This document shows positions 42,067-63,718 of a stretch of DNA of 64,000 nucleotides, piece by piece. The position numbers and the translations under genes were made by a program. Source of the stretch: Streptomyces sp. NBC_00513 (lineage in GTDB: Bacteria; Actinomycetota; Actinomycetes; Streptomycetales; Streptomycetaceae); NCBI RefSeq assembly GCF_041431415.1, contig NZ_CP107845.1:6696001-6760000 (forward strand), read 5' to 3'. Within the stretch, counting starts at the first letter, position 1. Every line of letters starts with the position of its first letter. The notes below the pieces were generated by a model. It was not told where the DNA came from. It did no database searches and saw only the letters and a list, made by a program, of their open reading frames with translations.

Positions 42067-45000
42067 TCATGCGTTCCCGCTCCTTGTGGACATGACCGCG
42101 AACAGCTCCGAGAGCGGCTGCCGCGGGTCGTCGGCCACGTGCCCGATCAACACGTGGAGTTCCTCGGCGAGCCGCCGGGCCTTGGCCGGGCCGAGCAGCT
42201 CGACCGCGTGGATCAGCTCGCCGTACACCGGACCCTCGCCGCGCGGTTCGTGGAACCCGAGCGTCAGCTCCGCGGTGGTCCGGGCGACCGGAACGGCCTG
42301 GAAGGTGCCCATGCCGCCCTCCAACTCGTCCAGGTCCGCCTGCTCGTGGTGGACCACCGTCACCTGCGGTCCCCGCGCCGGCAACCCCGAGGCGCGGAGC
42401 ACCGCGTCGAACGGCACCTCCTGGTGGTCCAGCGCGCTCAGCGTCGTCTCCCGCACCCGCGACAACAGCTCCAGGAAGGTCGGGTCGCCGCCGGTGTCGG
42501 TGCGCAACACCACCGTGTTGAGGAAGCAACCGACCAGCGGGGCGAGCCGCTCGTCCGACCGGCCCGCGACCATGGTCGCGATCGGCAGGTCGGTGCCCGC
42601 GCCGTGCGCCGTCAGCAGCGCCGACAGCGCCGCGTGCAGCACCATGAACATGCTCGTGCCGCTCTCCCGGGCCAGGGCGTCCACCCGGGCGTGCAAGCCC
42701 TCGTCGAGGACGAACGGCACCTGCCCGGCCGTGTACCCCGCCCGCCCGGCGTCCGCGGGCCGCGGCCGGTCCGTCGGAAGGGCCAGGGCGCTCGGCGCCT
42801 CCCGCAGCGTCCGGCGCCAGTAGGCGAGCTGCCGCCCGCCCGCGCTGTCCGGGTCGTCGAGGTCGCCGAGCGCCTCGCGTGCCCAGAGCGCGTAGTCCGC
42901 GTACGACACCGGCAACGGCTCCCAGTCGGGCGCGACGCCGCGGAACCGGGCCGCGTACGCCGTCGTCAGGTCCCGGAACAGCGGCACCACCGACCACTCG
43001 TCCACCGCCAGGTGGTGCGAGGCCAGCAACAGGGCCTGGGCCCCGTCGGGAGCCGTGAGCAGCCGGACCCGCAGCGGCGCCCGCGAGGTCAGGTCCGCCG
43101 TCTCGCCCGCGAGTTCGGCGAGGCGGGACTCCAGGTCCGCGCACTCCTCGACGGCCAGGACCGGCGGTTCGACGGCGGGACGCAGCCGCAGCTCCCCGGC
43201 CTCCTCGCCGAAGGAGGTGCGCAGCGGGGCGTGCCGGTCCACCACGTCGGCCAGCGCGTCGGCCAGCGCCCGGGCGTCGAGCCCGCCCGGCGAGCGCAGC
43301 GCGAGCGCGCTGTCGAAAGCGGGCCGCGGTCCGTACGCCCGCCACTGCGCGCCCTGAACCGGCGCGGCGGGAAGCTCCCGCGCCCCCGCTCCGGCGCCCG
43401 CCCGCAGAGCCGGCCGGGCCGCCCGCGCGCCGGCCAGCCGCTCCGCGATGCCGCTGACCGTGAGGGCGTCGAAGACGTCCCGGATGCTCAGCTCCACCCC
43501 GAACTCGGCCCGGATCAGGCCCAGCAGGCGCATGGAGGCCATGGAATGGCCGCCCAGGGCGAAGAAGTCGTCGTGGACACCGACCTCGTCCAGCCTGAGG
43601 ATCTCGCCGAACAACCGTGCCAACCGGGTCTCGGTGGCATCGGCCGGCCGGGCGTCGCCCGTCATCCCCGACCAGTCGGGCGCGGGCAGCGCCTTGTGGT
43701 CCAGCTTCCCGTTGGGGGTGAGCGGCAGCGGCCCGTCCAACGGCACCACCAGGGCGGGCACCATGTACTCCGGGAGCAGCCCGGCCGCGTGCGCGCGCAG
43801 GGCCCGCGGATCGAGTTCCCCGCGCTCCGCCACGGCGTACCCCACCAGACGCACGATGTCCCCGTCCCGGTCGGCCACCACCGCGGCCTGCGCCACGTCG
43901 GGATGCGCGGCCAGGGCCGACTCGATCTCGCCCAGCTCGATGCGGAAGCCGCGGATCTTCACCTGCGTGTCGACCCGACCCAGGAAGTCCAGATTGCCGT
44001 CCCGCCGCCAACGGGCCCGGTCCCCGGTGCGGTACATCCGGCCGCCGGGCGCCCCGAACGGGTCGGCGACGAACCGCTCGGAGGTCAGCCCGGGCCTGCC
44101 CAGGTAGCCGCGGGCCAGACCCCGACCCGCGACGTACAGTTCGCCGGTCACCCCGGGCGGGACGGGGGAGAGGGTCGCGTCCAGCACGTAGCAGCGGGTG
44201 TTGGGGTCGGGACGACCGATCGGCACCCGCCCGCCGGGACGCCCGCCGGCCTGACGCGCCGGCCACAGCGTCGAGTTCACGGTGGCCTCGGTCAGTCCGT
44301 ACGCCGCGATGAGGTTCACCGTGGCGCCCCAGCGCTCGAACAGGTCCGGGGGCACCGTCTCGGTGCCGACCAGGATCGTCGAGCCCTCCGGCAGCTCACA
44401 GCCGGCCGGCAGCGCCGAGACCAGCGAGGGCGGCAGGATCATGTGCGTGACGCCCTGCTCCGCCAGGAACTCGGTGAGCGCGGATCCCGCCACCCGCGCC
44501 TCGTCGGGGACGAGCACCAGCCGGCCGCCGTGACACAGGGCCATCGCCAGCTCGAACACGGCCACGTCGAAGCCGATCGACGCGAACTGGAGAACCCGGC
44601 TGTCGCTGCGCAACCCCATCCGGTCCACGGCCGTGGCGACCAGGCTGGAGATGCCCTCGTGCGGGACGACCACGCCCTTGGGGCGGCCCGTCGAACCCGA
44701 TGTGTAGATCACGTACGCGGCCCCGTCCAGGGGGACGTCCGGCAGGTCCGGGGCCCCGTCGGGCAGTCCGTCGAGTTCGGCCGCCGTGCCCGGGGCGTCC
44801 AGCAGGACCACCGGGACCCCCTCGACCGCGGGGATCTTCCCCGCCACGGACTCGGTTCCGACGACCAGGACGGCACACGAGTCCTCGACCATGTAGACCA
44901 GCCGGTCGGCGGGATGGACGAGGTCGAGCGGCAGGAACGCCGCACCCAGCTTGAGGACCGCCAGCACCGTCGCGACCATGTCGATCGAGCGCGGCACGGC

Positions 45001-48000
45001 CACCCCGACCACGCTCTCGGCGCCCACCCCGCGCGCGGCGAGCAGCCGGGCGATCCGGTCGGACCGGGCGTCGAGACCCGCGTAACCCAGTGTCGTGGTC
45101 CGCTCGACCACCGCCGGGGCGTCGGGCCGCTCCGCGAGCCGCGCCGCGAACAGCGCGGGCAGGGACAGCTCGTCCACCACCCGGTCGGTGGCGTTGAACT
45201 CCTCCCGCACCAGACGCAGTTCTCCGGCGTCCATGATTTCCAGGCGGGACACCGGAAGGGCCGGGTCGACGGCCACGGCCGAGACGAGCCGGCGCAGCCG
45301 CTCGCCCAGCCGCTCCACGCCCTCGCGATCGAACAGCTCGGTGGCGAACTCCAGCCGGCAGTCGAGTCCGTCCGCCTCCGGGTCGTCGGCGCCCGTGCGC
45401 TCGGTGAAGCTGAACACGAGGTCGAACTTGGCCGAGGTGATCCGGAACGGCACGTACTCCACCGCCAACCCGGGCAGGGCCGCGTCCTCCCCGGTGCGGT
45501 GGTGGTAGCCGACCATGACCTGGAAGAGCGGATTGCGGGCGAGCGAGCGGGTCGGATTGAGCCTCTCCACCACCGCCTCGAAGGGCACGTCGGCGTGCGA
45601 GAACGCCGCCAGCGCGGTGTCGCGCACCCGCTCCACCAGCTCACCGAAGGCGGGGTCCCCGCCCAGATCCGTCCGGAGCACCAGCGTGTTGACGAAGAAG
45701 CCCACCAGGTCGTCCAGGGCCTCCTCGCCGCGCCCCGCGATGGGCGAGCCGATCGGTATGTCCGCTCCCGCGCCCATCCGGTGCAACAGCGCCGCGACGG
45801 CCGCGTGCACCACCATGAACATGCTCGCGTTGTGCTCCTTCGCGAGCCGGCGCAGCCCCCGGTGCGCCCGCGCGTCGAACGAGACGTCCAGCTCACCGCC
45901 CGTGAAGACGGGCCGGGCGGGTCGGGGCCGGTCGGCGGGCAGCTCGATCTCCTCCGGCGCCCCCTCCAGGGCGCCGCGCCAGTACTCCAGCTGCCGCGCG
46001 GCGAGGCTGCCGGGATCGGCGGCGTCGCCGAGCAGCTCCCGCTGCCACAGCGCGTAGTCCGCGTACTGCACGGGCAACGGCTCCCAGTGCGGCGCCGCCC
46101 CGCCCAGCCGGGCGGCGTAGGCGGTGGTCAGGTCGCGCAGGAAGGGCCGGTCCGACCACTCGTCGGTGGTGATGTGGTGCAGCAGCAGGACGACCACGTG
46201 GTCCTCGGCGCCGACCGTGAGGACCGTCGCGCGCAGCGGCAGTTCCCCCGCGAGGTCGAACGGGCGGCGCACCGCCGTGTCGATCAGGGCGGGCAGCTCC
46301 TCCTCGGTCGCCGGGGCGACCTCCACCACCGGCAGGGCCCCGTCCGCGGGCAGCACCCGCTGGAAGGCCAGGCCCTCCCGGGTGACGAAGACCGTGCGCA
46401 GGGCCTCGTGGCGGGCCGTGACGTCGGCCAGCGCCGCCCGCCAGGCCGCCACGTCGAGTCGGCCGCGCAGCCGCATCACGAGCGGGAAGTTGTAGGCGGC
46501 GGAGGCCGAGTCGATCTGCTGGATCACCCACAAGCGCTGCTGGGCGTGCGACAGCGGCAGTTCTGCCGGCCGCTCACCCGCCGTCAGCGCGGGCCGGCCC
46601 GCCGGCCCGCCCCCTTCGGCGCGCCCGGCCAGTTCCGCCACGGTCGGCGCCTCGAACAGGTCCCGGATCGCCAGCTCCACCGCGAGGGCGGTGCGCGCCC
46701 TGCCGACGAGCCTGGTCGCCAGCAGGGAGTGACCGCCGAGGTCGAAGAAGGAGTCGTCGATCCCGACGGCGGTCTCCGGCAGCCCGAGCACCTCCGCGAA
46801 CAGCGCCCGGAGCACCGTCTCCCGGGGGGTGCGCGGCGGCCGGCGGGTACCGGATCCGCCCAGGTCCGGTGCGGGCAGGGCCTGTACGTCGAGCTTGCCG
46901 TTCACGGTCAACGGCAGGGTTCCCACGGCCACCAGGGCGGCCGGGACCATGTAGCCGGGCAGGACGGTCTTGAGGTGCTCGCGGACCTCCGTGAGCAGCG
47001 TGTCGCCGCCCTCGGCCGCCGCCGGCTCGGGCACCACGTACCCCACCAGCCGCTTGTTCCCCGCGTGTTCCGTCACCACGACGGCCGCGTGGGCGATCAG
47101 CGGGTGCTCGGACAGGGCCGCGCCGATCTCGCCCAACTCGACCCGGTAGCCGCGGATCTTGACCTGGTCGTCGGTCCGCCCGAGGAAGTCGATCAACCCG
47201 TCGGGGCGCTGTCGCACCAGGTCACCCGTCCGGTACATGCGCGCCCCCGGCGCCCCGAACGGATCGGCGACGAACCGCTCCGCCGTCAGCGCCGGCCGGT
47301 CGTGGTAGCCGCGCGCCAGACCGGTGCCGGAGATGTACAACTCACCAGGACTGCCCGGCGGGACCGGCCGCAGCATCGCGTCCAGCACGTGCCCGCGGGT
47401 GTTGCGGATCGGCCGGCCCACGGTCGGGCCGGCGCTCTCGGCGGTGGACCCCCCGAGCGTGTTGATCGTGTACTCGGTCGGACCGTACAGGTTGTAGCCG
47501 TACGTCTCCTCCGTACGGGCCAGCCGGCCCCACACCGCGTCGGACACGGCCTCGCCACCGAGCAGGACCAGCGCGGGACGGTGTCTGCCCGTCGCCTCGT
47601 CGCGCTCCAACAGGCCCTCTTCGATGAGCAGTTGGGCGTACGTCGGGGTCACGTTCACCACGTCCACCCGGTGCCGGTCGCAGTAGTCCACCAGGGCCGC
47701 GGCGTCGCGCCGCAGCTCCTCGTCGCAGACGTGCACCTCGTGGCCCTCGACGAGCCAGAGGAGCTCCTCCCAGGACATGTCGAAGGCGAAGGAGACGGTG
47801 TGCGCGATCCGCAGCCGCCGCCCGCCCGCCGAGGCGATGGCTGGATCGAAGATCTCCACCTGGTGATTGAGCTGCATGTTCGTCAACCCCCGGTACGGGG
47901 TGACGACGCCCTTGGGACGACCGGTGGAACCGGAGGTGTAGATGACGTACGCCGGGTGCTCCAACCGGTCCGCGACCGTGTGGGCGAACGCCGGCCGTTC

Positions 48001-51000
48001 GGCGTCCGTGACCACCCCGCCCGACAGCGCGGCCAGCTCGGCGACGACCGCCGGATCGTCCAGCTCGACGGCGAGCGGACCCGCCTCCCCGCGCAAGGTC
48101 GGCGCGACGGCCACCGTGGACACCACGCACAGCGGCCCGGTGTCCTCGATCATCAGCCGCAGTCGGTCGGCGGGATGGTCGAGGTCGAGCGGCAGGTACG
48201 CGGCCCCCGTGCGCAGCACCGCGAAGAGCGCCACCACCATCTCGATCGAACGCGGCAGCGCCAGGGCGACGACCCGCTCGGGTCCGGCGCCCCGCGCCAG
48301 CAGCAGCCGGGCCAACCGGTTGATCCGCGCGTCCAGTTCCGCGTACGTGAGTTCCCGCGCGCCGAAGACCAGCGCGACCGCGTCGGGAGTACGGCCGACC
48401 TGGTCCGCCAGCATGTCGGCGACGGTCTCGTTCGGCACCGGCAGGTCACCCGTCGACGCGCGGTCCAGGGCGGCCCGTTCCGCGGGCAGCAGCAGGTCCA
48501 GCGCCGCCACCCGCTCCGCGAGGCCGTCGATCAGCCGGCCCACCACGAGCCGGAACCGCTCCAGCGTGGCCGCCGCCCGCTCGTCGTCGATCAGATCGGA
48601 GCGGTACTCCAGCTTCACGCCGACGACCGAGGCAGGATTGACGATCAGCGTCATCGGATAGTGGGTGGCGTCCACACTGTCGACACCGGTGATGCCGTGC
48701 CGTTCGGTCAGCCGACGGAAACCGTCCTCGTCCGCGAAGTTCTGCAGGACGTACAAGGTGTCGAACAGGACCCCGTGACCGCCCGCCCGCTGGAGCTCCG
48801 CCAACCCCAGGTACTCGTGGTCCATCACCGCGACCCGCTCCGAACGCACCCGGCGCAGCAACTCCAGGACGCTCTCCTCGGGCCGCAGCCGCACCCGCAG
48901 CGGCACGGTGTTCAAGAACATGCCGATCGCCGACTCGACGCCCGGCACCTCAGCCGGACGACCCGCCACCGTGGCGCCGAACACCACGTCGTCGCGACCC
49001 ACCGCCGCCGACAGCACCAGGGCCCACGCCGCGGACAGCACCGCGTTGACGGTCAACCCCTGCTCCCGGGCGCACCGGCGCAGCCGCTCGCTCAGCTCCG
49101 CGCCGAGGTCGAGGGAGCGACGGCGCGGGATCGTCGGCTCGCCGCCGCGCTCCCGCGCCACGAGCGTCGGTTCCGCGAGCCCGGACAGGGCGCGGCGCCA
49201 GGTCTCCCGCGCCGCGTCGAAGTCCTGTCCGGCGAGCCAGGCCAGGTAGTCGCGGTAGCTTCCCGGCGTCCCCATCCCGGCGGCGTCGCCCGCCGACTCG
49301 TACAGGCCGAGGAGCTCCTCCAGGAAGAGGGACTGCGACCAGCCGTCCCAGGCCACCAGGTGGTGGCCGAGCATCAGCCGGTCGGTGTCCGGGGTCAGCC
49401 GTATCAACCGGAGCCGGAACAGCGGGGGCGACGTCAGGTCGAACCGCAGCAACCGGTCCGCCTCGGAGATCTCCGCCAGCCGTGCCTCCCGCGCCGCCTC
49501 GTCGAGCCCCGTCAGGTCGGTCTCGACCAACGGCGCCGTGATCGTGTCCGGCGGGCAGACGAACTGCACGGGGCCGGGCAGACCGTCGCCGACGATGCCG
49601 GTGCGCAGCGCCGGATGGCGGGCCAGCAGCGTGGCACAGGCCGCGCGCAACCGGTCGACGTCGAGGCGACGGTCGAAGTCGAAGCAGTCCTGGGCGGTGT
49701 AGACGTCCAGCGCGGACGTGTCGTAACTGGCGTGGAAGTGGATGCCCTCCTGGAGCGGCGACAGCGGCCACACGTCGGCGACGGGCGCCGGGGCGGCCCG
49801 CTCCACCACGTCGATCTCCCCCTGGTCGAGGTCCACCAACGACAGGTCCGCCGGCCGGAGCCTGCGGGTGACGTCCGTTCCGGCGCCGGCGATCAACTCG
49901 CGCAGGGCCGCCGTCCAGGCGTCGGCGAGTTCGCACACGTCCTGCCCGGTCAGCGCCCCGCCCTCGCCCTGCGGCCAGGTCCACGTGGCACGCAGCTCGG
50001 GACCCGCCGGGGTGTCCGCGCAGACGGCGTTGACCTGGAGCGCGTAGGGCATCGCCAACCCGGCGTCGGGCCCCACGCGCAAGGCGTCCGCCTCGACGGC
50101 GGGTGCCCAGTCCCGATCCTGGTCCGCCGGCAGTCGACCGAAGTAGTTGAACAGCAACTGGGCACCCGAGAGCCGGGCGAAGACCGGGGCGAGCTGCGGA
50201 TTGAGGTAACGCAGCATGCCGTACCCGGCGCCCGCGTCCGGAGCCGAACGCACGGCCTCCCGGACCCGCCCGAGGACCTCCCGCGGATCGCCCGCCGCCG
50301 GCAGCCGCACCGGATGCAGTCCCGTGAACCAGCCGACGGTACGGGACAGGTCCAGCCCGTCCCCGAAGCCCTCGCGCCCGTGCCGCTCCAGATCCACCAG
50401 CAGGTCGCCCTCGGGCTTGCCGCCACGCCGGGCCACCGCCACCCGCAGCGCCGCGAGCAGCACCTCGGTGACATCGGCCCCGGCCGCCGCGGGCACCGCC
50501 GTCAACAGCGCCCTGGTCTCCTCGCCCGTCAACCGGACCTCGTGCTCACGCGCCGCCCCGACGGTACCGGTCCGACCCGCGCCCGGCAGCAACTCCGCCC
50601 CGGGGGCCAGCACCCCCGCCCAGTAGGGCAGTTCGGCCTGCCGTCGCGGCGAGGTCGCCTGCTCGACGACCTCCCGCGCGAACCGCCGCAGCGAGGTCGG
50701 CACGGGCTCCAGCACGGGCCGTCCGCCGCGCGCCACCGCCTCCCACGCGACGGCCAGGTCACCGAGCAGCACCCGCCAGGACACCCCGTCGACGGCCAGG
50801 TGGTGCACGACGAGCAGCAGCCGACCCGGCGTCCCCGCGCCCGCGTCGAACCAGACGGCCTGCAGGACGGTCCCCGCGTCGGGGTCCAGTCGGGACGCCG
50901 CCGCGTCGGACTCCTCGGCGACCAGAGCCCGCAGCGCGGCCCCGTCGAGACCGCGGGCGTCGACGCGGCGCGACAGGCCCGCCGCGTCCACCGCGCCGGG

Positions 51001-54000
51001 CGGCCGGATCACGGCCGACCACAGCGCCGGCAGGGCCGGCCCCAGGTCCATCCGGGACAGCACCGGGCGCAGACCGTCGTGGTGGTCCACCACGGCCTGG
51101 AGCGCGCCGGCCAGTGAGGCGAGGTCGGCCCCGGCGGGGGACCGGAGCAGCATCGACAGGTTGAAGCGGCCGATCGGACCGCCGTCCTCCCGGAGCTGGT
51201 GGACGATCGGCAGCAACGGCAGGTCGCCGACCCCGTCGGAGTCCGCGGCGGTCTCCGGAGCGTCCTGCGCGACCCCGGCGGGCGTGAGCGCCGCCGCCAG
51301 CGCGGCCGGCGTACGGTGCTCGAAGACCGCCCGGGGGGTGACGGTCAGCCCCGCCTTGCGGGCCCGCGCCGCCACCGACATGGACAGGATGCTGTCCCCG
51401 CCGAGCACGAAGAAGTCCTCGTCGCCGCCGACCTCGTCGAGGCCCAGGACCTGCGCGAACACCTCCCGCAACCGCCGCTCGCGGTCCCCCGGTGAGTCGG
51501 CCGGGACCGGTCGGGGGCCGCGCCGCACCTCGGGCGCCGGCAGCGCCGCCAGGTCGGTCTTGCCGCCCGCGGTCAACGGCAGCGCGTCGAGGACGACGAA
51601 GTGGCTCGGCACCATGGGCTCGGGGAGCGCCTCGGCCAGGGCCCGGCGGACCTCCTCGGGGTCGGGCGTCACGTCCGCGCCGGCCGGGACCAGGTAGGCC
51701 ACCAGCCGGGTGACCCCGCGCTCGTCGGCGCGGGCGACCACCACCGCCTCACCGACCGTGTTCTCGGCGCGCAGGCGTGCTTCGACTTCCCCGAGTTCCA
51801 CCCGGTTACCCCTGATCTTGACCTGGTGGTCGGTGCGCCCCAGATAGGTGAGCACACCGTCCGCGGTGGACTGGACGAGGTCCCCGGTGCGGTACATCCG
51901 CTCGCCCGGAGCGCCGAACGGATCGGCGACGAACCGCTCCGCCGTGAGGGCGGGGCGCGCGTGATAGCCGCGGGCGAGTTGGGCGCCGGCGATGTACAGC
52001 TCTCCCGCCTCACCCGCGGCCACGTGCCGCAGGTGCCGGTCGAGCAGGTACAGCCGGGTGTTCCACACCGGACGGCCGATGGGCACGGTGGCGGCCGTGC
52101 CCCCGCCGGGCAGCGGATCCGGGCCGGCCTCCCAGCCGGTGACCTGGATGACCGCCTCGGTCGGCCCGTACACGTTGAACAGCGGGACGCCGGTGCGCTC
52201 GCGCCAGCGCCGGGCCGCCGGGACCGTCAGGGCCTCGCCGCCGCTGAACGCCCGGCGCAGACCCGACCACCAGGGCCCGTCGCCGCCCGGCGGCACCTCC
52301 TCGGCCAGCAACGCCGTGTACAGCGAGGGCACCAGGTCGAGGGTCGTGACCCGTTCGGAGCGGATCAGGGAGATCAGGTACGCCGGATCGCGGTGACCGT
52401 CGGGCCGGGCGATCACGACCGTCCCCCCGGTCAGCAGCGGGACGAACACCTCCTGGAGCGACGGGTCGAACCCGGCCGCGTACTGGTGCAGCACCCGGTC
52501 GTGCGGACCGAAGCCGAACCGCTCGGCCGTCCAGGCGAGCTGCCCGGCCAGCGCGCGGTGCGTCACCACCACGCCCTTCGGCCGGCCCGTGGACCCCGAG
52601 GTGTACATCAGGTAGGCGGCCGAGTCCGGATCCGTGTCGGGGAGCGCGCGCGGACCGTGCACGGAGGCCCCGACGACGGCGCCGTCCACGTCGACCAGCA
52701 CCGTGCGCACCCCGGCCGCGGCGGGCAGCGCGTCCCGCACCTCCGCGGTGGCGACCAGGATCCGCGCGCCCGAGTCGGCCAGCATGTGCCGGACCCGCTC
52801 GGCCGGTGCCCCCGGATCGACGGGCAGGCACACGGCGCCCGCCTTGAGCACGCCGAGCCACGCGACCACCTCCCCTGCCGAACGGGGCACCGCGACCGCG
52901 ACCACTGCCTCGGGACCCGCGCCCTCGGCGGCCAGCCGGCGCGCCAACGACACGGCCAGCACGTCCAGTTCGGCGAATCCGGTGCCGTGGCCGTCGTGCC
53001 GCAGCGCCGTCGCGTCCGGCGTTCGACGGGCCTGGGCGGTGAACGCAGCGTGCACGGTGGTGTCGGGCAGCGGACGCACCGCCCCGGACAGGGCGCCCGA
53101 GGCGGCCCCGCGGCCGACACGGGCCACCGGCAGGGCCGGATCGGCGACCAACTGCGCGCACAGCGCGCGCAGTCGCCGGGTGAACAGCTCGGTGGCCCGG
53201 TCGTCCAGCCGGGAACGGTCGTGGTCGAGCTGGAGGCGCAGCCGCGCGCCCGGCAGGACGGTCAACGCGAGCGGATAGTGCACGGAGTCCCGGACGCGGG
53301 AGTCCGTGATCCGGATCCGTCCCGCGGGATCGCCGCGCTCCCCACCGTCCGGCAGGTTCTCGACCACCACCAGCGCGTCGAACAGCTCGCCCCGGCCCAC
53401 GGCCCGCCGGATCTCCGCCGGCCCGAGGTGCTGATGGTCCAGCAGCTCCGCCTGACTCTCCTGGAACCGGGCCAGCACCTCGCCCAGCGGCTGCTCCGGA
53501 CGCCAGGCCAGCCGGGCCGGCACGGTGTTGATCAGCAGGCCGACCAGGGTGTCGACCCCCGGGACCGGGGCCTGCCGACCCGAGACCGTGACCCCGACGG
53601 CCAGGTCGTACGAGCCGAGCACGTCCGCGAGGACCAGGGCGAAGGCGCCCTGCGCGACCGTGCCCAGGGTCAGCCCGAGTTCCCGGGCGCGCGCCGTCAG
53701 CGCGGCCGTTTCCCGCTCCGTGAGATCCAGGGTGACCCGGCCGTACCCGCCGGCTCCCGCCTCCACCGGCCGCACGGGCAGCCCCGCCGGTGCGTCGAAT
53801 CCGGCCAGCGCCCGGCGCCACGCGGCGCGCGCGCCTTCCCGGTCCAGGCCCGCGAGCCAGCCCGCGTAGGCCCGGTAGCCCGGATCGGGTGTCGGGCGCG
53901 GCGGCGCCTCGCCGGGCCGGTACCCGGCCAGCAGGTCGCGCAGCAGGAGGGACACCGACCAGCCGTCGACGATGATGTGGTGCAGGGTCAGGACCAGCAG

Positions 54001-57000
54001 TGACCGGTCCGCGCCGAGCCTGAGCAGGGCCGCCCGCAGCAGCGGCGGCCGTCCCGGGTCGAAGCCGGCGGCCCGTTCCGCCGCGGCCGCCTCCTCCACC
54101 GCCGCGTCCCGCCGGTCCGGGGCCAGGCCCGAGAGGTCCGCCTGGCTCCAGGGCAGTTCGACCTGCTCGCCGACGAGCTGCAGGATCCGTCCGTCGTGGC
54201 GCTGGACGAAGGCCGCGCGCAACAGCGGATGACGATCCAGCATGTGCTGGACGCTGACGCGCAGCGCGTCCGCGTCCACGTCGCCCGCGAGGTCGAGGGT
54301 GTCCTGCACGGCGTACCCGTCGGCCCCGGCGCCGTCCATCTGCGCGTGGAAGAAGAAACCTTCCTGGAGAGGCGTGGCCGGGACGATGTCCACCAGATCG
54401 GGGACGGCGGCGACGAAGTCGGCGCGCTCGGCGGCCGTCGAATCGACGAGGGAGAACGGCTCGGGCAGCGGGGCGGGCGGCCGTGCGTCGGGGGCCGCGG
54501 CGCCGGTGGCCCGCGCGAGTGCGGCCGGGGTGCGCAGCCGGAACACCTCGCGCGGGCTGACCTCGACACCGGCCTCCCGGACCCGGGTGACCAGTCGGAT
54601 CACCACGATGCTGTCGCCGCCGAGTTCGAAGAAGCTGTCGTGGACGCCCACCGAGGGCAGTCCGAGCACCTCCGCGAACAGCCCGGCGTACAGTGCCTCG
54701 GCCGGCGTGGTCGGCTCCGCGTCCCCGGTGAGTTCCGTCCAGCGCGGTGCGGGCAGCGCCCGCGTGTCGAGCTTCCCGTTGGGCGTCAGCGGCAGGGGGC
54801 CGTCCAGGCGCAGCACCGCGGACGGCACCATGTGCTCGGGCAACACCTCGGTCACCCGGGCGCGCGCGGCCCGCACGACGGCGTCCGCTGCGGGCCCTTC
54901 CGCGGCGGGCCCGTCGACCCCGAGGTCGTCCACCCGGTGCCCGTCGCCGCCCCGATCGTCAGAGCCCCCGTGCGTCCCGTGCGCCTCGTTGGCCCCGGAG
55001 TCGGTGACCAGGTAGGCGACCAGGCGCCCGGCTCCCCGGTGGTCCTTGACGGCGAGCACGGCGGCCTGCGCGATGCCCGGGCAGGCCATGAACGCGCTCT
55101 CGATCTCGCCCGGTTCGATCCGGTGCCCCCGGATCTTGAACTGACCGTCCGCCCGGCCCAGGAACTCCAGGTTCCCGTCGGCGCCCCAGCGGACCCGGTC
55201 GCCCGTGCGGTACATCCGCGTACCCGGGTCTCCGTACGGGTCCGCGACGAACCGCTCCGAGGTCAGCGCGGCCCGACCCAGGTAGCCCCGGGCCAGACCC
55301 CGGCCCGCGACGTACAGTTCGCCCTCCGTCCCCACCGGGACGGGGCGGAGCGCGGAGTCGAGCACGTACGTGCGCGTGTTGGGGTCGGGGCGGCCGATCG
55401 GCGCGGGCCCCGGACGTGACGGATCGGCCGACCACAGCGTGGAGTTGACGGTCGCCTCGGTCAGCCCGTAGGCGACGACGATGCGCACCCGCCCGGCCCA
55501 GCGGGCGATCAGCTCGCCCGGCACGGCCTCCGTGCCGACGACGAGCACCGAGCCCTCGGGCAGTTCGCACTCCGGGAGGAGCGCCGACACCAGCGACGGC
55601 GGCAGGATCATGTGGGTGGCGCCGTGCGCGCGGATGTAGTCGGTGAGGGCCGGGCCCGCGACCCGCCGCTCGGCGGGCACGAGAACGACCCGGCCGCCGA
55701 CGCACAGCGACATGACGAGGTCCCAGACGGTGACGTCGAAGCCGACCGAGGCGAACTGCACGACGCGGCTGTCCTCGTCGATGCCGATCCGCTCGGTGGC
55801 GGTGGCGATCAGGCTGCCGATGCCGTCGTGGGAGACCACCACGCCCTTGGGGCGCCCGGTGGACCCGGAGGTGTAGATGACGTACGCGGCCTGGTCCAGG
55901 ACGACCGGAACCCCGGGGTCCGAGGGATCGGCCGCCGCCCGCTCCGCGACGGTCGCCGGATCGTCGAGCACCAGCCGGCCGGCGGCGGTGTCCTCGGGCA
56001 GTCCGCCGGCGGCCTCCCGGGTGGTGACGACGGTCCGCGCGCCGGAGTCGGCGAGCATGTACGCGATCCGCTCGCGGGGGTGGTCGGCGTCCAGTGGCAG
56101 GTACGCCGCGCCGGCCTTCATCACCGCGAGCAGGGCGACCACGAGTTCGGGGGAGCGGGGAACGGCCACGGCGACGATGTCCTCGGCGCCCACGCCGCGG
56201 GCCAGGAGCAGTCGGGCCAGCCGGTTGGCGGCGGAGTTCAGCTCTCCGTAGGTCAGGGTGCGGTCCTCGTACACGAGGGCCGTGCGGTCCGGGGAGAGTC
56301 GCACCCGGCGCTCGAAGGCGGCCGGCCAGGACACCTCCTCGGTGGGGTGGGCGCTGACGGCGAGCGAGCCGAGCAAGTGATCCCGCTCGGAGCCCGCGAG
56401 CAGCTCGATGCGACCGAGGGGGAGTTCCGGCGCGTCGACAAGAGCGCCGAGCACCCTGCGCAGACGCCGGGCGTGGCCGCCGACCTCCTCGTCGTCGCTC
56501 ACGTCCGCGTCGGCGTCGAAGTGGAAGCGGACGGCGCCGCGCTGCGATTCGCCCACCGTGACGGCCAGGTCGCTGACGGGGCCCATCCACTGGGGGCGCA
56601 GGTCGCCGGGGTGCTCGCCGAAGCGCAGCCATCCCGTGCCGGGCAGCACGTTGACCGTGGGACCGACGAGTTCGGCCACGCCCTCCACGAGCCCGAGGTC
56701 CTTGGCCAACTCCTCGGCGCGGTAACGGCCGTGGGTCACGGCCTCGGTGACGCGCCGGTCGACCTCGGCCAGCAGCTCCGTGCCGGTCATGTCCGGTCGT
56801 ACGCCCAGCCGCAGCGGAACGATGTTGGAGACCATGCCGGGGACCTCCCGCGTCCCCGGGTCCACCCGGGTGGTGACGGGCAGCCCGAGGACGAGGTCCT
56901 GCGCGCCCGTGACCCGGTGGAGGTGCGCGGCCACGGCCGCGACGAGCAGTCGGGAGAGCCGTACGCCCGACCGCTCGGCGCCGGCGCGCAGGCGCGCGGT

Positions 57001-57711
57001 GTCCTGCGCCGAGTACTCGTCGGTGCAGCGCACCCGGCGGGCGATCACGGCGGGCCCGCGCCGCACGAGCCGCACGGGTTCGGGCCGGTCCGCGAGCCGC
57101 TCCAGCCAGTGGGCGCGGTCCTCCGCGAAGCTCGCGGAGGCGCGGTAGGCGGCCTCGGAGTCCGTGAGGCGGGTGAACGTCCAGTCGATCCCGCCGACCG
57201 GTCCCGCGTCGCCGTAGAGCTCGCCGGCCCGCCGCGAGAGCAGTCCCACGCTCACGCCGTCGATGACGATGTGGTGGTACAGCTGGTACCACAGGACGCG
57301 ATCGTCGGCGAGCAGGACCAGGGCGTGCCGGAAGAGAGGGCCCCGAGCGAGGTCCAACGGCCGCGCGCGGTCGGCCTCCATCCAGTCCCAGGCCGCGAAC
57401 TCCGCGTCCGGCGCGTCCCGCAGGTCGACGAGGGGAACGTGCGCCGGGAAGCGCACGGCGTGCTGACGGGGTTGCCCGTCGGCGTCCGCCGTGAACCGTA
57501 CGTGGAGGCACTCGGCCTCCTCGACCACCTGCCGCACGGCGGCGGTCAGGCGGTCGAGGTCGACCGGCCCGCGCAACTCCAGGGTGAACGTGACGTTGTA
57601 GGCCGAGCTGTCCGGCTCGATCCGCTGGGCCGGCCAGATCCCGGCCTGCCCGCCGGTGACGGGTATTGCGGAGTCGGATGCCGGGTTGTCCGGCTCGGCG
57701 GCGTCAGACAT
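42067..57711 (-). CDS. Hydroxamate siderophore NRPS, four modules: C-A-T-C-A-T-E-C-A(hOrn)-T-C-A-T-C
   Basis: A 5214-residue NRPS. C1, with HHIVIDG (about 147), resembles the first C domain of EntF. A3 motifs [11 protein letters not shown] fall at about 615, 1703, 3258 and 4337; carrier sites GGDS/GGDS/GGHS/GGHS at about 1029, 2103, 3658 and 4720. An epimerisation domain ([10 protein letters not shown], about 2303) follows module 2, so residue 2 is D. C3 has [10 protein letters not shown] (about 2780), C4 HHITTDEWS, and a last C domain (HHLAVDEWS, about 4900) ends the protein with no thioesterase. Codes by eye: A1 DVWIVGAVNK, A2 DPQDFGVIQK, A3 DMENLGLINK, A4 DVFILGAVNK. A3 is the exact N5-hydroxyornithine code known from coelichelin-type NRPSs. 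The terminal C domain probably releases by cyclisation, as proposed for erythrochelin. No iron box lies directly upstream; it should be read from the monooxygenase promoter. Confidence 0.95.
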
Positions 57712-57756: not shown

Positions 57757-58797
57757 TTACTTGACGGCCTCGAGCTTCGGCACGACCTGGTCGATGGCGT
57801 ACGGGATGCTCAGGACCGTGTTGAAGGACAGCGCGGCGCCGATGTCCGGGTTGTCGTACGGAAGGAACAGGTCGCGCTTCTCCTGGTGGACCTTGGTCTT
57901 CTGGTAGAGCGGGTCCGCCTTCATCGCGGCCTCGGTCTCGGCGGTGCCCAGCCAGACCGTCCGATCGGCCTCCATGACGTCGAGGCGCTCGGAGCTGAGG
58001 TCGGCGACGTTCTCCTTGCCGAGGGCCGTCCGGTAGGCCTCGGAGGTGGTGAAGCCCATCTCGCTCAGGAAGATGACCTTGGGGTCCTTGGGGGAGAAGG
58101 CCGAGAACTTGCCGGGCTCGTAGGGCTCCCCGACCGAGACCGTCTTGCCCTTCCACTCGGGGTGCTTGTCCCGGACGGCCTTGAAGCGCGCGTCGATGCC
58201 CGCGATCAGCTTCTCGGTCTCGGCGTCCTTGCCCAGCGCCTTGCCGATCTGCTCCGTCATGACCTGCCAGGTCGCCTGGTAGTCCTCGGAGCCCTTGGGT
58301 TGGGCCACCACCTTGGCGATCTTGGACAGGGTGGCGTACTGCTCCTTCTTCATGCCCGAGTACTGGGCGATGATCAGGTCGGGCTTGAGCGCCGCGATCT
58401 TCTCCATGTTGTACTCGTCGCGTTCGCCGACGACCTGCGGGGGAGCGGAGCCCCACAGGTCCTTGGCCCAGGGCCACTTGCCGTACGGCTGCTCCTTGAA
58501 CCAGTCGACGGCGCCGACCGGCTTCACGCCGAGGGCCAGGACGGCGTCCTGGTCGGACAGGCCGAGCGTGACGACCTTCCTCGGCTGCTCGGCGATCGTC
58601 GTGCTGCCGTACTTGTGCTCCAGCGTCACGGGGAAGGCCCCGGCTGCCGATCCGGTCTCGCCGGACTTGGCGGTGTCCGCCTTGTCGGAGTCACCGCCGC
58701 CGCAGGCGGCGAGCGCGAGCGCCGCCGTCGCGGCCACGGCCACACGGGGCAGGAGGCGGGCGAACCTCGTGGACGCGGAGCGGGTACCAAGTGGCAC
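57757..58797 (-). CDS. Ferrisiderophore-binding lipoprotein (ABC transporter substrate-binding protein)
   Basis: A 346-residue periplasmic-binding-type lipoprotein of the FepB/FhuD class. The N terminus has Arg residues, a hydrophobic stretch and the lipobox LAAC, with Cys about residue 32, so it should be lipid-anchored outside the cell. VTLGLSDQDAVLALGVKPVG and the later TSEAYRTALGKENVADLSSE are typical of the fold. The GTG at 58797 has AAAGGA about seven bases upstream. It lies between the ornithine monooxygenase and the NRPS on one strand, like the binding protein of the coelichelin cluster, and would deliver the ferrisiderophore to the permeases at 35-38 kb. Confidence 0.94.
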   Translation of the reverse strand: MPLGTRSASTRFARLLPRVAVAATAALALAACGGGDSDKADTAKSGETGSAAGAFPVTLEHKYGSTTIAEQPRKVVTLGLSDQDAVLALGVKPVGAVDWFKEQPYGKWPWAKDLWGSAPPQVVGERDEYNMEKIAALKPDLIIAQYSGMKKEQYATLSKIAKVVAQPKGSEDYQATWQVMTEQIGKALGKDAETEKLIAGIDARFKAVRDKHPEWKGKTVSVGEPYEPGKFSAFSPKDPKVIFLSEMGFTTSEAYRTALGKENVADLSSERLDVMEADRTVWLGTAETEAAMKADPLYQKTKVHQEKRDLFLPYDNPDIGAALSFNTVLSIPYAIDQVVPKLEAVK

Positions 58798-58927: not shown

Positions 58928-60277
58928 CTAGAGCGGGGAGCCGATCTCGTCGGCGGCGCGGCGGGGTCCGCCGGCGGGCTCCGGGCCGCGGTCCACGATC
59001 GACCCCAGGATGTCCCCGACCCGGACCGCCGTGTTCGACAGCAGGGACGAGGTGATGCCGTGGGTGTGCTCGGTGCCGCCCTGGAGGTATATGCCGCAGC
59101 GCAGTTCGGGATCGGTCGTCAGGCGGTAGTCCCGCTCGACCCTGACCCGACCCTGCTCGTCCAGCAGGCAGTACCGGCCGACCTCGCCGAGGAGGGCGAG
59201 CGCGTCGGCCGAACGGTAGCCGGTGGCGTAGATCAGCACGTCGGCGTCCAGATGGGTCCGCTCGCCGGTGACCAGCGACTCGACCGTGGCGAGCACCTTG
59301 TGGGGCGTCTCGACCACGTCGGTGAGTCGGGAGACCTTGAGGAAGCGCAACCGTTCGGTGCCCAGGACCTTCTCCTGGTACTGCTGCCGGTAGAGGTCGT
59401 CGATGAGGTCGATGTCCACCACGGAGTAGTTGGTGTTGGCGTGGTACGCGATCAGCTTGCGCTTGACGTCCTCGGGTGCGGCGAAGTACTCGTCGACCGC
59501 GTCCGGGTCGAAGATCCGGTTGGCGAACCCGCTGTCGTCGGCGGGGCTGTAGCCGTACCGGGAGAAGACCGCGCAGACCTCGGCCTCGGGGAAGGTGCGG
59601 TGCAGGAAGGCCACGTTCTCGGCGGCGCTCTGGCCGGCGCCGACCACGACGAACCGGGACGGGGCGGTGTCCTTGAGCGCGTCCACCCGCGTCAGCAGGT
59701 CGGACGTGTGCCAGACGCGGTCCGTGCGCTCGACGCCTTCCGGCATCCGCGGTCGCAGTCCGGTGCCGATCACGAGGTTGCGGGCACGGTGGACCACCGG
59801 TTCCGCGCCGGAGCGCGCGATCACGTCCACGTACCGCACCGCGCCGTCGACCACGACGGGCCGTACGGCGATGACCTCGTGGCCGTACGACACCATGTCG
59901 TCGACCTTGGCCGCCGCCCACTCGAAGTAGTCGTGGAACTCCACGCGCAGCGGGAAGAGGTTCTTGTGGTTGACGAAGTCGATCAGCCGCCCCCGGCTCT
60001 GCAGGTAGCAGAGGAAGCTGAACTCGCTCGTCGGATTGCGCAGCGTCACCAGGTCCTTCAGGAAGGAGACCTGCATGGTGGCGTCGTCGATCAACATGCC
60101 GCGGTGCCAGCCGAAGCGGGGCTGCTGCTCGAAGAAGTGGGCCGTGACCGCCCCCTCCCTGCCGACGCTCGCGTTGTGCTCGCTCAGTGCGATGGCCATC
60201 GCCACATTGGACGGTCCGAAGCCGATTCCAATCAGGTCGTGGATCAATGGCGCATCGTCAGGAAGAGCTTGTGACAT
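58928..60277 (-). CDS. L-ornithine N5-monooxygenase (hydroxamate siderophore)
   Basis: A 449-residue flavin monooxygenase of the SidA/PvdA/CchB family that hydroxylates the side-chain nitrogen of L-ornithine using FAD, NADPH and oxygen. Visible motifs: FAD loop IGIGFGPSNVAMA at the N terminus, FGWHRGMLIDDATMQVSFLKDLVTLRNP (family substrate region; DDATMQVSFLKDL), NADPH loop VVVGAGQSAAENVAFL, and the C-terminal ATGYRSADAL. The ATG at 60277 has GGGAGT four bases upstream; the frame is open to 60340 but would run into the promoter. An iron box lies 89 bases upstream. It supplies N5-hydroxyornithine for the A3 domain of the NRPS and substrate for the divergent formyltransferase. Confidence 0.96.
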   Translation of the reverse strand: MSQALPDDAPLIHDLIGIGFGPSNVAMAIALSEHNASVGREGAVTAHFFEQQPRFGWHRGMLIDDATMQVSFLKDLVTLRNPTSEFSFLCYLQSRGRLIDFVNHKNLFPLRVEFHDYFEWAAAKVDDMVSYGHEVIAVRPVVVDGAVRYVDVIARSGAEPVVHRARNLVIGTGLRPRMPEGVERTDRVWHTSDLLTRVDALKDTAPSRFVVVGAGQSAAENVAFLHRTFPEAEVCAVFSRYGYSPADDSGFANRIFDPDAVDEYFAAPEDVKRKLIAYHANTNYSVVDIDLIDDLYRQQYQEKVLGTERLRFLKVSRLTDVVETPHKVLATVESLVTGERTHLDADVLIYATGYRSADALALLGEVGRYCLLDEQGRVRVERDYRLTTDPELRCGIYLQGGTEHTHGITSSLLSNTAVRVGDILGSIVDRGPEPAGGPRRAADEIGSPL

Positions 60278-60365
60278 GTCACTCCCATCGGGGGGCGGCC
60301 GCTTGCCAGGTGTGAGGGGGGAACAGCGGAAGCGAGGCATGACGACGTGCGACTGCCAGCGAAAC

Positions 60366-60384
60366 TTAGGTTAGCCTAACCTGA
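60366..60384 (-). promoter_or_regulatory. Iron box upstream of the ornithine monooxygenase
   Basis: TTAGGTTAGCCTAACCTGA matches the DmdR/IdeR consensus at 17 of 19 positions. It is the best candidate operator for the monooxygenase, binding-protein and NRPS run (60277 to 42067), for which no other box was found. Confidence 0.85.
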
Positions 60385-60470: not shown

Positions 60471-60489
60471 TTAGGTAAGCCTTGCTTTA
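60471..60489 (+). promoter_or_regulatory. Weaker iron box upstream of the formyltransferase
   Basis: TTAGGTAAGCCTTGCTTTA matches the consensus at about 13 of 19 positions; the left half is well kept, the right half poorly. It lies 36 bases before the formyltransferase ATG. The pair of boxes in this 248-base divergent region mirrors the arrangement at 38.1-38.3 kb. Confidence 0.55.
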
Positions 60490-60525
60490 CTGGAGTCAAT
60501 CCATCATTCTTCTGAGGAGGACCGC

Positions 60526-61473
60526 ATGCGGGTCGTCATGTTCGGGTACCAGACCTGGGGACATCGCACTCTGCAGGCGCTGTTGGACTCCGAGCACGAC
60601 GTGGTGCTGGTCGTCACGCACCCCAAGAGCGAGCACGCCTACGAGAAGATCTGGAGCGACTCGGTCGCCGACCTCGCGGCCGAGCACGGAGTGCCGGTCG
60701 AGATCCGCAACCGCCCGGACGACGAGGAGCTGTTCGCCCGCCTCAAGGAGGCGGATCCGGACATCATCGTCGCCAACAACTGGCGCACCTGGATCCCCCC
60801 GCGCATCTACGACCTGCCGCGCCACGGCACCCTGAACGTGCACGACTCGCTGCTCCCCAAGTACGCGGGCTTCTCCCCGCTGATCTGGGCCCTCATCAAC
60901 AACGAGTCCGAAGTGGGCGTCACCGCCCACCTGATGGACGAGGAACTCGACGCCGGGGACATCGTGGTCCAGCAGGCGGTCCCGGTCGGCCCGACCGACA
61001 CCGCGACCGACCTGTTCCACAAGACGGTCGACCTGATCGCCCCGGTCACCGTGGGCGCGCTCGACCTGATCGCCTCCGGCCGCACCGAGTTCACCAAGCA
61101 GGACCGCTCGCTCGCGAGCTTCTTCCACAAGCGCGCCGAGGAAGACGTCCGGATCGACTGGAACTGGCCCGCCGAAGACCTCGCGCGCCTGGTCCGGGCC
61201 CAGTCCGACCCCTACCCGAGCGCCTTCACCCACCACCGGGGCAAGCGCCTGGAGATCCTGGCCGCCGTGGTGTCCGAGGCCAGGTACGGGGGCACCCCCG
61301 GCCGGATCTTCTACCGCGAGGGCGACGGGGTCGTCATCGTGGCCGGCGCCGACGCGCGCACCGGCCGCAATCACGGACTCGCCGTCACCCGGGTCCGCAC
61401 CGAGGACGGCCGGGAACTGTCCGCGACGGAGTACTTCACCTCCATGGGTGGATATCTGACCAGTCGGCCCTGA
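60526..61473 (+). CDS. N5-hydroxyornithine formyltransferase (methionyl-tRNA formyltransferase-like)
   Basis: A 315-residue protein of the formyltetrahydrofolate-dependent formyltransferase family, as CchA in coelichelin biosynthesis. The catalytic region is NVHDSLLPKYAGFSP with Asn and His, followed by the Asp in DEELDAGDIVVQQ. The C-terminal domain, residues about 208-315, begins VRIDWNWPAEDLARLV. The ATG has GAGGAGG five bases upstream. With the divergent ornithine monooxygenase it would make N5-formyl-N5-hydroxyornithine, a hydroxamate iron ligand. The 107-residue C-terminal domain reappears in the regulator encoded next downstream. Confidence 0.95.
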   Translation: MRVVMFGYQTWGHRTLQALLDSEHDVVLVVTHPKSEHAYEKIWSDSVADLAAEHGVPVEIRNRPDDEELFARLKEADPDIIVANNWRTWIPPRIYDLPRHGTLNVHDSLLPKYAGFSPLIWALINNESEVGVTAHLMDEELDAGDIVVQQAVPVGPTDTATDLFHKTVDLIAPVTVGALDLIASGRTEFTKQDRSLASFFHKRAEEDVRIDWNWPAEDLARLVRAQSDPYPSAFTHHRGKRLEILAAVVSEARYGGTPGRIFYREGDGVVIVAGADARTGRNHGLAVTRVRTEDGRELSATEYFTSMGGYLTSRP

Positions 61474-61509
61474 GTGGCCGCACGCCGAGTCCCCACCGAT
61501 CGACCGGAC

Positions 61510-61536
61510 GGCGCCCCGCACCGACCACGGGGCGCC
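61510..61536 (+). terminator. Perfect 9-bp hairpin after the formyltransferase
   Basis: GGCGCCCCG (61510-61518) and CGGGGCGCC (61528-61536) pair perfectly around a nine-base loop, 36 bases after the formyltransferase stop. It probably ends that transcript, so the MarR gene 107 bases further on would have its own promoter or depend on read-through. Confidence 0.6.
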
Positions 61537-61547
61537 GACCTGACCCC

Positions 61548-61585
61548 TCGCCGCCGCGCGGATCACCGGATCCGTGGGGCGGCGA
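61548..61585. other. Inverted repeat upstream of the MarR-fusion gene
   Basis: TCGCCGCC (61548-61555) and GGCGGCGA (61578-61585) are inverted repeats; the sequence between them contains a second small dyad around GATC. It lies 58 bases upstream of the MarR-fusion start, where an autoregulatory operator could sit, but in such GC-rich DNA it may be chance or a second terminator stem. Confidence 0.3.
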
Positions 61586-61642
61586 CGTCATTCCGTCGGC
61601 GGCGCACTCGGCAACGAACGAACGGGGAATGAGGGAAAGCTG

Positions 61643-62755
61643 ATGGAGCGACAAACGACCACCGGTACGCACGGGGACCCCGTCGGGTCCCCGTTCGTCA
61701 TCATCGGAGTGGGGAACACCCAGGCGGACTGGGCGCGGGTGCTCGGCGCCCTCACCAACGCCGACCCGACCATCGCTGCTCCGCCGGCGCCGGGGGCCGC
61801 CGCACCCGGGGCCACGCAGGAGAGACCGGCACCGGAACCGAATCCGGCGCCCGTCGCCGGTGGCGCCGAACACTGCGGGAGACCGGCCGCGGTGGCGGAA
61901 CCCAAGAGCGCGACACCGCCCAGCGTCCTCGACCTGAACGCCTACCTCGTCTACGCGATCGGCAAGGCCGCCCGACGCAGACTGACGGCCAAACTGACCG
62001 AACACGGGCTGCGCCTGTGGCACCTGACCGTGTTGGCACTGCTGTCCGACCTCGGCCCGCAGTCCAAGGGCACCCTCGCGACGCGTCTCGACATGAACGC
62101 CAGCGATCTCGTCAAGATCGTGAACGACCTGAACCGCGCCGGCCACGTCGACTGCACCCGCGACACCGAGGACCGCCGCCGGGTCGTCGTGGACCTCACG
62201 GAGAACGGTCGCGCCGCGCTGAGTCGCCTCAACGCTGACATCGCGTCCGCCGACGAGGAGTTCCTGAGCCCCCTGAGCGCCCCCGAGCGCGCCCAACTCG
62301 GCTCCCTGCTCCGCCGCGTGCACCGACACTTCGACACCACCCCGTCCCACACCGTCCACGAGGAATCCGGCGGCCCCGTCGCGAACCCCGCGGCGCCCCA
62401 CCGGGCCGGCGTCCGGTCCGTCGAGGCCCTGCGCATCGACTGGAACCGGTCGGCCGAGGAGATCGGCGATCTCGTCCGGGCCCAGTCCCGTTCCTCCACG
62501 GCCGCCTACACGCACCACGGCGGGCGCCGCCTGGAGATCCTGGCCGCCACCGTCACGCCGGACCGGTACGACGGCGCGCCCGGCCGCGTGGTGCGCTCGA
62601 CCTCCGACGGTCCGGTGATCGTGGCGGGATCGGACGGGCGGTCCGCGCCGGGCCGGGGGCTGGCGCTGCGGCGGGTCCGGACCGAGGACGGTACCGAGAT
62701 GTCGGCGAGCGAGTACTTCGATCCGCAGCCGGGTGGACTGACGACCGAGAGCTGA
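61643..62755 (+). CDS. MarR-family regulator fused to a formyltransferase C-terminal-like domain
   Basis: A 370-residue protein in three parts. Residues 1-94 are a Pro/Ala-rich, probably flexible region. Residues about 95-229 are a MarR winged helix: LRLWHLTVLALLSDLG, then KGTLATRLDMNASDLVKIVNDL as the likely recognition helix, the wing CTRDTEDRRRVVVDLTENG and the dimerisation helices. After a linker, residues 264-370 align without a gap to the last 107 residues of the adjacent formyltransferase, 60 identical (RIDWN, LVRAQS, THHxGxRLEILAA, VIVAG, RVRTEDG). The part with formyltransferase catalytic residues is absent. The ATG at 61643 has GAGGGAAA four bases upstream. By position it probably regulates siderophore genes; ligand sensing by the C-terminal domain is inference. 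Confidence 0.92.
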   Translation: MERQTTTGTHGDPVGSPFVIIGVGNTQADWARVLGALTNADPTIAAPPAPGAAAPGATQERPAPEPNPAPVAGGAEHCGRPAAVAEPKSATPPSVLDLNAYLVYAIGKAARRRLTAKLTEHGLRLWHLTVLALLSDLGPQSKGTLATRLDMNASDLVKIVNDLNRAGHVDCTRDTEDRRRVVVDLTENGRAALSRLNADIASADEEFLSPLSAPERAQLGSLLRRVHRHFDTTPSHTVHEESGGPVANPAAPHRAGVRSVEALRIDWNRSAEEIGDLVRAQSRSSTAAYTHHGGRRLEILAATVTPDRYDGAPGRVVRSTSDGPVIVAGSDGRSAPGRGLALRRVRTEDGTEMSASEYFDPQPGGLTTES

Positions 62756-62896: not shown

Positions 62897-63718
62897 GTGG
62901 CGGTGGCGGTGGACGTCCGTGACGTGCGGGGCGGTGCGGGGGACGTGGACCGCGGCGACATCGGTGCGGGCCACGCGCCTCACCGGCGCCCGGACCCGAG
63001 GATCGCGCAGTTCGTGGCCGACGCCCTCGGCGGTGCGCGCAGGGTGGTCAACGTCGGCGCGGGGGCCGGTTCGTACGAGTCGGCGGCGCGGGCCGTGACG
63101 CCCGTGGAGCCCTCGGAGTCGATGCGGGCACGGCGCGCCGCGGGCCTGCCGCGGGCGGTGGACGCGGTCGCCGAGCACCTGCCCTTCGCCGACGGGGAGT
63201 TCGACGGGGCGATGACGCTGTTCAGCGTCCACCAGTGGTCGGACGTGGGGGCGGGCCTGCGCGAGATGCGGCGGGTCACCCGGGGCCCGGTCGTGGTGCT
63301 GACCTGTGATCCGGAACGGGTGCGCGACTTCTGGTTGTACGAGTACGCGCCCGAGGTCCTCGACACGGAGGCGCACCGGTATCCCTCCATCGGAATGATG
63401 GCCGCGGCTCTGGGCGGTTGTGGGAGTGTGCGGGCGGTGCCGATTCCGTGGGACTGCACGGACGGGTTCAACGAGGCGTACTTCGGGCGTCCGGAGATGT
63501 TGTTGGATCCGGCGGCACGGCAGGCGTGTTCGGCGTGGAGCTTCGTGGACGACGGGGTCCGAGAACGCTTCACGACACGGTTGCGGGCGGATCTGGATTC
63601 GGGGGTGTGGGACGAACGGTTCGGTCATCTGCGGCGTCGGTCGTTCCACGAGGGGTCGCTCGTGCTCGTGCGCGCGACACCGGAATCGGAAGAGGAACAG
63701 TTCCATGGGGGTACCTGA
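62897..63718 (+). CDS. SAM-dependent methyltransferase (type 11 fold)
   Basis: A class I methyltransferase of about 270 residues. The SAM-binding motif I is VVNVGAGAGSYE, with EPSESMRARR as the following acidic strand and FADGEFDGAMTLFSVHQWSD as motifs II-III. The C-terminal half (WDCTDGFNEAYFGRPE) is typical of small orphan methyltransferases in Streptomyces. A GGAGGAGG ribosome site at 62887-62894 serves one of three in-frame GTG codons; 62903 has the best spacing, 62897 is the first. The 141-base spacer upstream shows no clear signal. Its link to the siderophore cluster is uncertain: it could N-methylate an ornithine residue but has no iron box. Confidence 0.85.
   Translation: MAVAVDVRDVRGGAGDVDRGDIGAGHAPHRRPDPRIAQFVADALGGARRVVNVGAGAGSYESAARAVTPVEPSESMRARRAAGLPRAVDAVAEHLPFADGEFDGAMTLFSVHQWSDVGAGLREMRRVTRGPVVVLTCDPERVRDFWLYEYAPEVLDTEAHRYPSIGMMAAALGGCGSVRAVPIPWDCTDGFNEAYFGRPEMLLDPAARQACSAWSFVDDGVRERFTTRLRADLDSGVWDERFGHLRRRSFHEGSLVLVRATPESEEEQFHGGT

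Follow-up and report, generated by a model that had tools for sequence, protein, structure and literature searches.

The locus raises the question of how a transcriptional regulator of Streptomyces sp. NBC_00513 came to end in a domain of the enzyme encoded beside it, and what that domain contributes. The window (the whole stretch of 64,000 nucleotides that was analysed) contains a forward-strand gene at 61643..62755 encoding a 370-residue protein with three recognisable parts: an N-terminal segment derived from the aspartokinase LysC beta subunit and representing the first part of an ACT fold (residues 1-47; 61643..61783), a MarR winged-helix core (residues 91-233; 61913..62341), and a formyltransferase-type C-terminal domain, or CTD (residues 257-361; 62411..62725). 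The reading frame crosses the gene without a stop codon, and the ATG at 61643 is supported as the start, since alignments with both relatives and the aspartokinase beta subunit begin at its residue. Pfam identified MarR_2 at residues 121-180 (31.4 bits, cut-off 27) and a second family, MarR, on the same protein (26.3 bits, cut-off 24.6), and the predicted structure has the MarR fold. PF02911 (Formyl_trans_C) was placed at residues 261-359 (E = 3.4e-14; 53.3 bits against a curated cut-off of 21.1), and the predicted fold of this segment matches that family. The protein does not belong to the DmdR/IdeR family, no member of which was among the Pfam and NCBIfam families listed at E <= 1. Its genome encodes the full protein in a single copy, and the next best match there is the CTD of the neighbouring formyltransferase.

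The surroundings suggest a hydroxamate siderophore cluster, since a divergent ornithine/lysine N-monooxygenase (58928..60340, reverse strand; PF13434, E = 1.8e-107), a periplasmic-binding-type protein of iron uptake (57757..58797, reverse strand; PF01497), FecCD permeases, an ABC ATPase, and an NRPS of 5214 residues (42067..57711, reverse strand) are all present. Four adenylation-motif sets were located in the NRPS by a motif scan. The cluster formyltransferase, which is the closest paralogue of the CTD source, lies at 60526..61473 on the forward strand and carries both PF00551 and PF02911. Downstream of the regulator, a gene with a methyltransferase domain (PF08241) occupies 62897-63718 on the same strand.

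The initial annotation had pointed out that the ends of the formyltransferase and regulator genes align without gaps, which was confirmed: positions 61150-61473 and 62432-62755 each comprise 107 codons and a stop codon, with 60 of 107 residues identical. The maximum reached in 10000 shuffles was 20. DNA identity between the two segments is 206/324, and BLASTP of the whole regulator against the whole formyltransferase gave 62/111 identical residues (E = 5e-36). The catalytic domain is absent from the regulator, as had also been claimed; Formyl_trans_N (PF00551) was not among the 11 Pfam families listed at E <= 1. The central proposal, that a MarR-type protein is fused to a paralogue of the enzyme's CTD, is upheld by the single-origin clade described below and by the predicted folds of the two CTD segments. 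These were compared as had been suggested and proved to be the same, so that the objection of differing folds falls away. The other objection raised in advance, that unrelated MarR proteins might commonly carry the segment as a stand-alone domain, found no example in a search that ran through relatives of the regulator. Fmt chains are among the best 50 Foldseek matches, but those alignments span 144-192 columns at an rmsd near 20 Å; a second structure aligner was relied on for the comparison.

The N-terminal segment has a different source. A family profile searched against PDB sequences matched residues 1-62 of the aspartokinase beta subunit 2dtj_A (E = 1e-7), in a search that also matched MarR and formyltransferase chains. 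A typed N-terminal consensus aligned from the first beta-subunit residues of 4go5_X (2.1e-8), 3s1t_A (4.8e-8), and 2dtj_A (5.5e-8), and the N-terminal profile matched LysC of the same genome (G000:C1:3797735-3798952, approximately 3 Mb from the regulator) at E = 3.6e-12 in a one-sequence search. Sixteen proteins were tested singly against this LysC, and 15 of them beat the best of 1000 shuffles; the exception was the window's regulator (score 36; shuffles 30.8 +- 4.8). Its aspartokinase descent is read from its relatives, because its own segment is not significant by itself. On the evidence of these alignments, residues 1 to approximately 47 descend from the LysC beta subunit. The similarity spans about 47 residues, and no ACT family was listed in the domain searches. 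Relative to LysC (2dtj, 4go5), with which it shares about the first 47 residues from the subunit start, the regulator retains no more than the beginning of the regulatory region, and the DKPGEA loop of the C. glutamicum beta subunit has become NMPTDW in the typed family consensus; Asp29 and Trp30, both new relative to LysC, occur in 90% or more of 59 family rows. In the model of the relative P0016, two strands followed by a helix span residues 6-38 at a pLDDT of roughly 70, only a portion of an ACT fold; the segment is of low confidence in the window's own model. Structural neighbours from the PDB were mostly MarR chains, and missing ACT folds there carry no evidential weight. A formyltransferase origin of this segment was rejected: hhalign gave a probability of 0.4% (E 0.16), and 12 proteins tested all fell within their shuffles, the best scores being matched in 28 and 34 of 300 shuffles.

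PF02911 is carried by 37 of 98 related proteins, a set scored only among the 7993 candidates with the most shared words, and all organisms named among them belong to Streptomyces. A MarR-core pattern scan of named genome contigs yielded 35 loci, titled Streptomyces or [Kitasatospora] papulosa, of which 8 are fused (L009-L016), 26 unfused, and one frameshifted (L042). A cluster-type formyltransferase adjoins the regulator in 31 of these loci, and for that reason the duplication that produced the CTD was probably local. A fused regulator is present at L015 without any formyltransferase; L034 and L035 retain the regulator with the formyltransferase reduced to short N-terminal remnants; and the L027 locus ends at a contig end. 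Among 61 genomes sampled from the genus, the source genome included, a formyltransferase was found in 25 (E <= 1e-60), with a MarR gene at most 1.5 kb away in four, namely that of the window and three with unfused regulators. No fused regulator was found in the 60 other sampled genomes (E <= 1e-20, 32 candidates scored per genome). Three further proteins were observed in passing. L084 (G052:C1:668000-674500) is a close relative of the regulator core, 61% identical and without a CTD, located more than 1 Mb from the formyltransferase of its own genome in contig coordinates; P0013 has a frameshifted CTD; and P0102 combines a MarR domain with PF02492 and may also be a frameshift product.

The CTD tree (74 rows, 127 columns) was rooted on two distant formyltransferases, L071 and L072, as the only outgroup. 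It included 12 of 32 enzymes from one set and 25 of 26 from the genus sample; P0033, which has a long branch, and the L058 enzyme, which reads on into a longer frame, were omitted. In this tree all 37 regulator CTDs group together in one clade (100/99) that lies within the cluster-type formyltransferase clade (98/96), and a single regulator-CTD clade was recovered in 100% of 200 sampled bootstrap trees. As far as sequence can tell, the regulator CTD was acquired once, by one duplication. Distances in the CTD follow those in the MarR core across 35 fused proteins (r = 0.89, 0/2000 permutations), as do N-terminal distances across 33 proteins (r = 0.82, 0/2000 permutations); P0033, P0005, and P0009 were left out of both correlations, and P0029 and P0041 also out of the latter. 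Of 130 family rows, some of them duplicated between protein records and loci, both extra parts are present in 44, the N-terminal segment only in 72, the CTD only in 2, and neither in 12, so that the CTD is absent from 84 and the N-terminal segment from 14. The two proteins with a CTD and no recognised N-terminus, P0029 and P0041, are possibly mis-started.

The rooted MarR tree (142 columns, distant outgroup; P0102, P0013, L027, L043, P0094, and near-identical rows omitted) has 11 changes of CTD state and 6 of the N-terminal segment. In an earlier MarR tree (P0102, P0013, and L027 omitted, L042 without a regulator row), well-supported branches force at least 4 of 13 CTD-state changes. Given one origin of the CTD, most of these changes are therefore losses. 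P0049 has no CTD and ends in a piece of the CTD tail, its sister P0032 having the whole domain (fork 100/83); such tail pieces were also seen in P0043, P0045, P0050, and L018. The domain appears dispensable, because it was gained once and lost many times. The ancestor may have carried both extra parts, a point that depends on the root set by the distant outgroup.

Residue conservation was compared after leaving out F_L042, F_L039, L047, and L058. Sixty CTD positions are conserved at 95% or more across 54 enzymes; in regulators, 23 of these are retained by at least 80% of the 38 CTDs compared, among them Arg209, Trp212, Ala233, His237, Gly239, Arg241, Pro258, and Gly259; many of the kept positions are Gly, Pro, or hydrophobic. 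The 37 not retained at that level include the interdomain linker, Trp214, Gln226, Pro229, Met307, and Tyr310, and the mean net charge of the domain moves from +2.0 in enzymes to -3.5 in regulators. Selective constraint was estimated as Nei-Gojobori dN/dS in six pairs of fused genes that share sequences (L016 was used three times). The ratio was 0.15-0.31 for the MarR core, which is very conserved across the family alignment, 0.29-0.70 for the CTD, 0.36-0.87 for the N-terminal segment, and 0.25-2.85 for the linkers; in the five pairs with the enzyme, the formyltransferase gave 0.02-0.14 for its N domain and 0.08-0.27 for its CTD. With its higher range, the regulator CTD is less constrained than either the MarR core or the source enzyme, and since it overlaps the linkers, much of it may be near-neutral. 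In the pair L012/L014, the regulator CTD (0.29) and the enzyme CTD (0.27) are nearly equal, which argues for a more specific role of the domain there.

Iron-box-like sites were scored against a DmdR/IdeR consensus. One such site lies between the monooxygenase and the formyltransferase at 60366..60384 (1 mismatch), and a second element, identified by eye and conserved in relatives, precedes the formyltransferase at 60471..60490. All 31 monooxygenase-formyltransferase gaps scored contain a site with at most 3 mismatches. Directly before the regulator, 29 gaps including that of the window were scored, long gaps being represented by their last 320 bases. At up to 6 mismatches, with 0/100 shuffles as good, a site was found in 13 of 28 relatives (L010, L011, L013, L016, L018, L019, L022-L026, L036, and L041), which suggests that the regulator is itself iron-controlled in those strains; none was found before the window's own regulator at the same threshold. 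A link between this site and loss of the CTD was discarded, the 29 gaps giving no pattern (4/8 fused vs 9/21 unfused). The gap between formyltransferase and regulator (61474-61645; fold z-score -3.5) contains a strong hairpin, whose core at 61553..61574 on the forward strand is the sole match to its pattern in the genome. Similar hairpins were seen by eye at L009, L017, L023, L029-L032, and L040, some altered on both arms. If the hairpin is a terminator, as we read it, transcription of the regulator probably starts from a promoter of its own. No operator was found; the only candidate that is conserved lies in the gap between monooxygenase and formyltransferase, a TGTCGAC-NNGNCAAANCGGACA-like element flanked by the two iron-box-like sites (for example L010, L012, L054, and L059). 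This TGTCGAC...CGGACA-like element was rejected as an operator and is not specific to the regulator, because by eye it occurs as well at loci without a MarR gene within 1.5 kb (L054, L056, L058, and L059).

The account tentatively preferred, as the best available and somewhat short of probable, is that the protein is a MarR-type local regulator of the hydroxamate siderophore locus with a once-acquired, non-catalytic, dispensable accessory CTD. Once, within Streptomyces, a MarR gene would have gained at its end the CTD of a cluster-type formyltransferase, and its start would carry about 47 residues from the aspartokinase beta subunit; as computed from the trees and distances, the parts appear to have been inherited jointly, with the CTD later deleted in many lineages. 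The MarR core would dimerise, bind DNA, and do most of the sensing, placing the siderophore genes under local control, and the regulator would work without its CTD. The CTD would fold as a module without catalytic activity, attached by a flexible linker, tuning the regulator perhaps through partner binding, oligomerisation, or stability, and not as a copied substrate site. In favour of this account stand the homology and fold of the CTD, its single clade, the joint inheritance and the losses, the constraint on the CTD, the conserved core, and the kept positions; against it stand the failure to find an operator, the overlap of CTD dN/dS with the linkers, the constraint in L012/L014, the sharing of sequences between pairs, the short alignments, and the distant outgroup. 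Not far behind it, and a serious if doubtful contender, is the idea that a single illegitimate recombination left behind both the CTD and the N-terminal fragment, which fold and do little while the MarR core does everything. The absence of these parts from 84 and 14 of the 130 rows, the CTD remnants indicating simple in-frame deletion, and a CTD dN/dS weaker than in core and enzyme all fit such leftovers. Yet all six pairs have a CTD dN/dS below 1, 37 of 98 proteins have an intact frame, with one frameshifted CTD (P0013) recognised among those without PF02911, the structure model is confident, and Asp29 and Trp30 hardly vary and are new compared with LysC.

The initial annotation had put forward, as a hypothesis, a sensor in which the borrowed CTD binds hydroxyornithine, formyl-hydroxyornithine, or the siderophore, releasing the repressor. 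This is conceivable and went unsupported, and is here considered unlikely. Fmt/ArnA-type enzymes bind donor and acceptor in the catalytic domain, which the regulator lacks; 37 of 60 enzyme-invariant CTD positions are not retained; the CTD has been lost repeatedly with the MarR core retained; and the regulator outlasts a missing or decayed formyltransferase at L015, where it is still fused, and at L034 and L035. In favour of the sensor are the derivation of the CTD from a pathway enzyme whose gene it adjoins and the existence of wHTH regulators with enzyme-derived sensor domains, such as MocR (excerpts of PMC5320631 and PMC4944035). Equally improbable, as a bolder proposal, is a two-enzyme regulator whose three-part ancestor monitored the state of hydroxyornithine formylation or bound to the formylation machinery, the tail being dropped as the chemistry or control of the siderophore changed. 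That fusions arose repeatedly and independently, or that each neighbouring formyltransferase acted as donor in gene conversion, might be suspected from the interspersion of fused and unfused regulators on the MarR tree, but the one CTD clade in all 200 sampled bootstrap trees and the tracking of core distances by CTD distances make this very improbable. An assembly or annotation artefact can be practically dismissed; no evidence supporting it was found, and the architecture recurs in 37 of 98 related proteins from many separately named strains, with no internal stop in the window's frame.

Each part has known counterparts. The winged-helix core shares sequence and predicted fold with the MarR regulators YusO (1s3j) and PcaV of S. 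coelicolor (4g9y), which, unlike this protein, have neither an aspartokinase-derived N-terminus nor a formyltransferase CTD. The CTD likewise shares sequence and predicted fold with the C-terminal domain of Fmt/ArnA (PF02911), but here it lacks the catalytic domain, many enzyme-invariant residues, and the original charge. MocR proteins, in the excerpts consulted (PMC5320631, PMC4944035), also join a winged-helix protein to an enzyme-derived, aminotransferase-like domain; theirs is a whole PLP-enzyme-like domain of broad distribution, whereas the present regulator has a single accessory domain of a neighbouring enzyme, often lost. In the NRPS siderophore cluster for megalochelin (PMC10127220), the genes for ornithine monooxygenase and formyltransferase are likewise divergent; the clusters of that paper share this pair, and according to its authors no regulator is encoded in any of those compared. 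The earlier impression that no regulator of such architecture had been described agrees with the open-licence literature, in which none was found by titles and abstract openings among the matches listed.

The donor enzyme and the recipient regulator are still adjacent, and many natural losses of the CTD offer a comparison. With close relatives that have and lack the domain (for example P0032 and P0049), it becomes testable whether an accessory enzyme domain is an added function or a rider. If the regulator controls the cluster, it would be a possible pathway-specific switch beside iron control.
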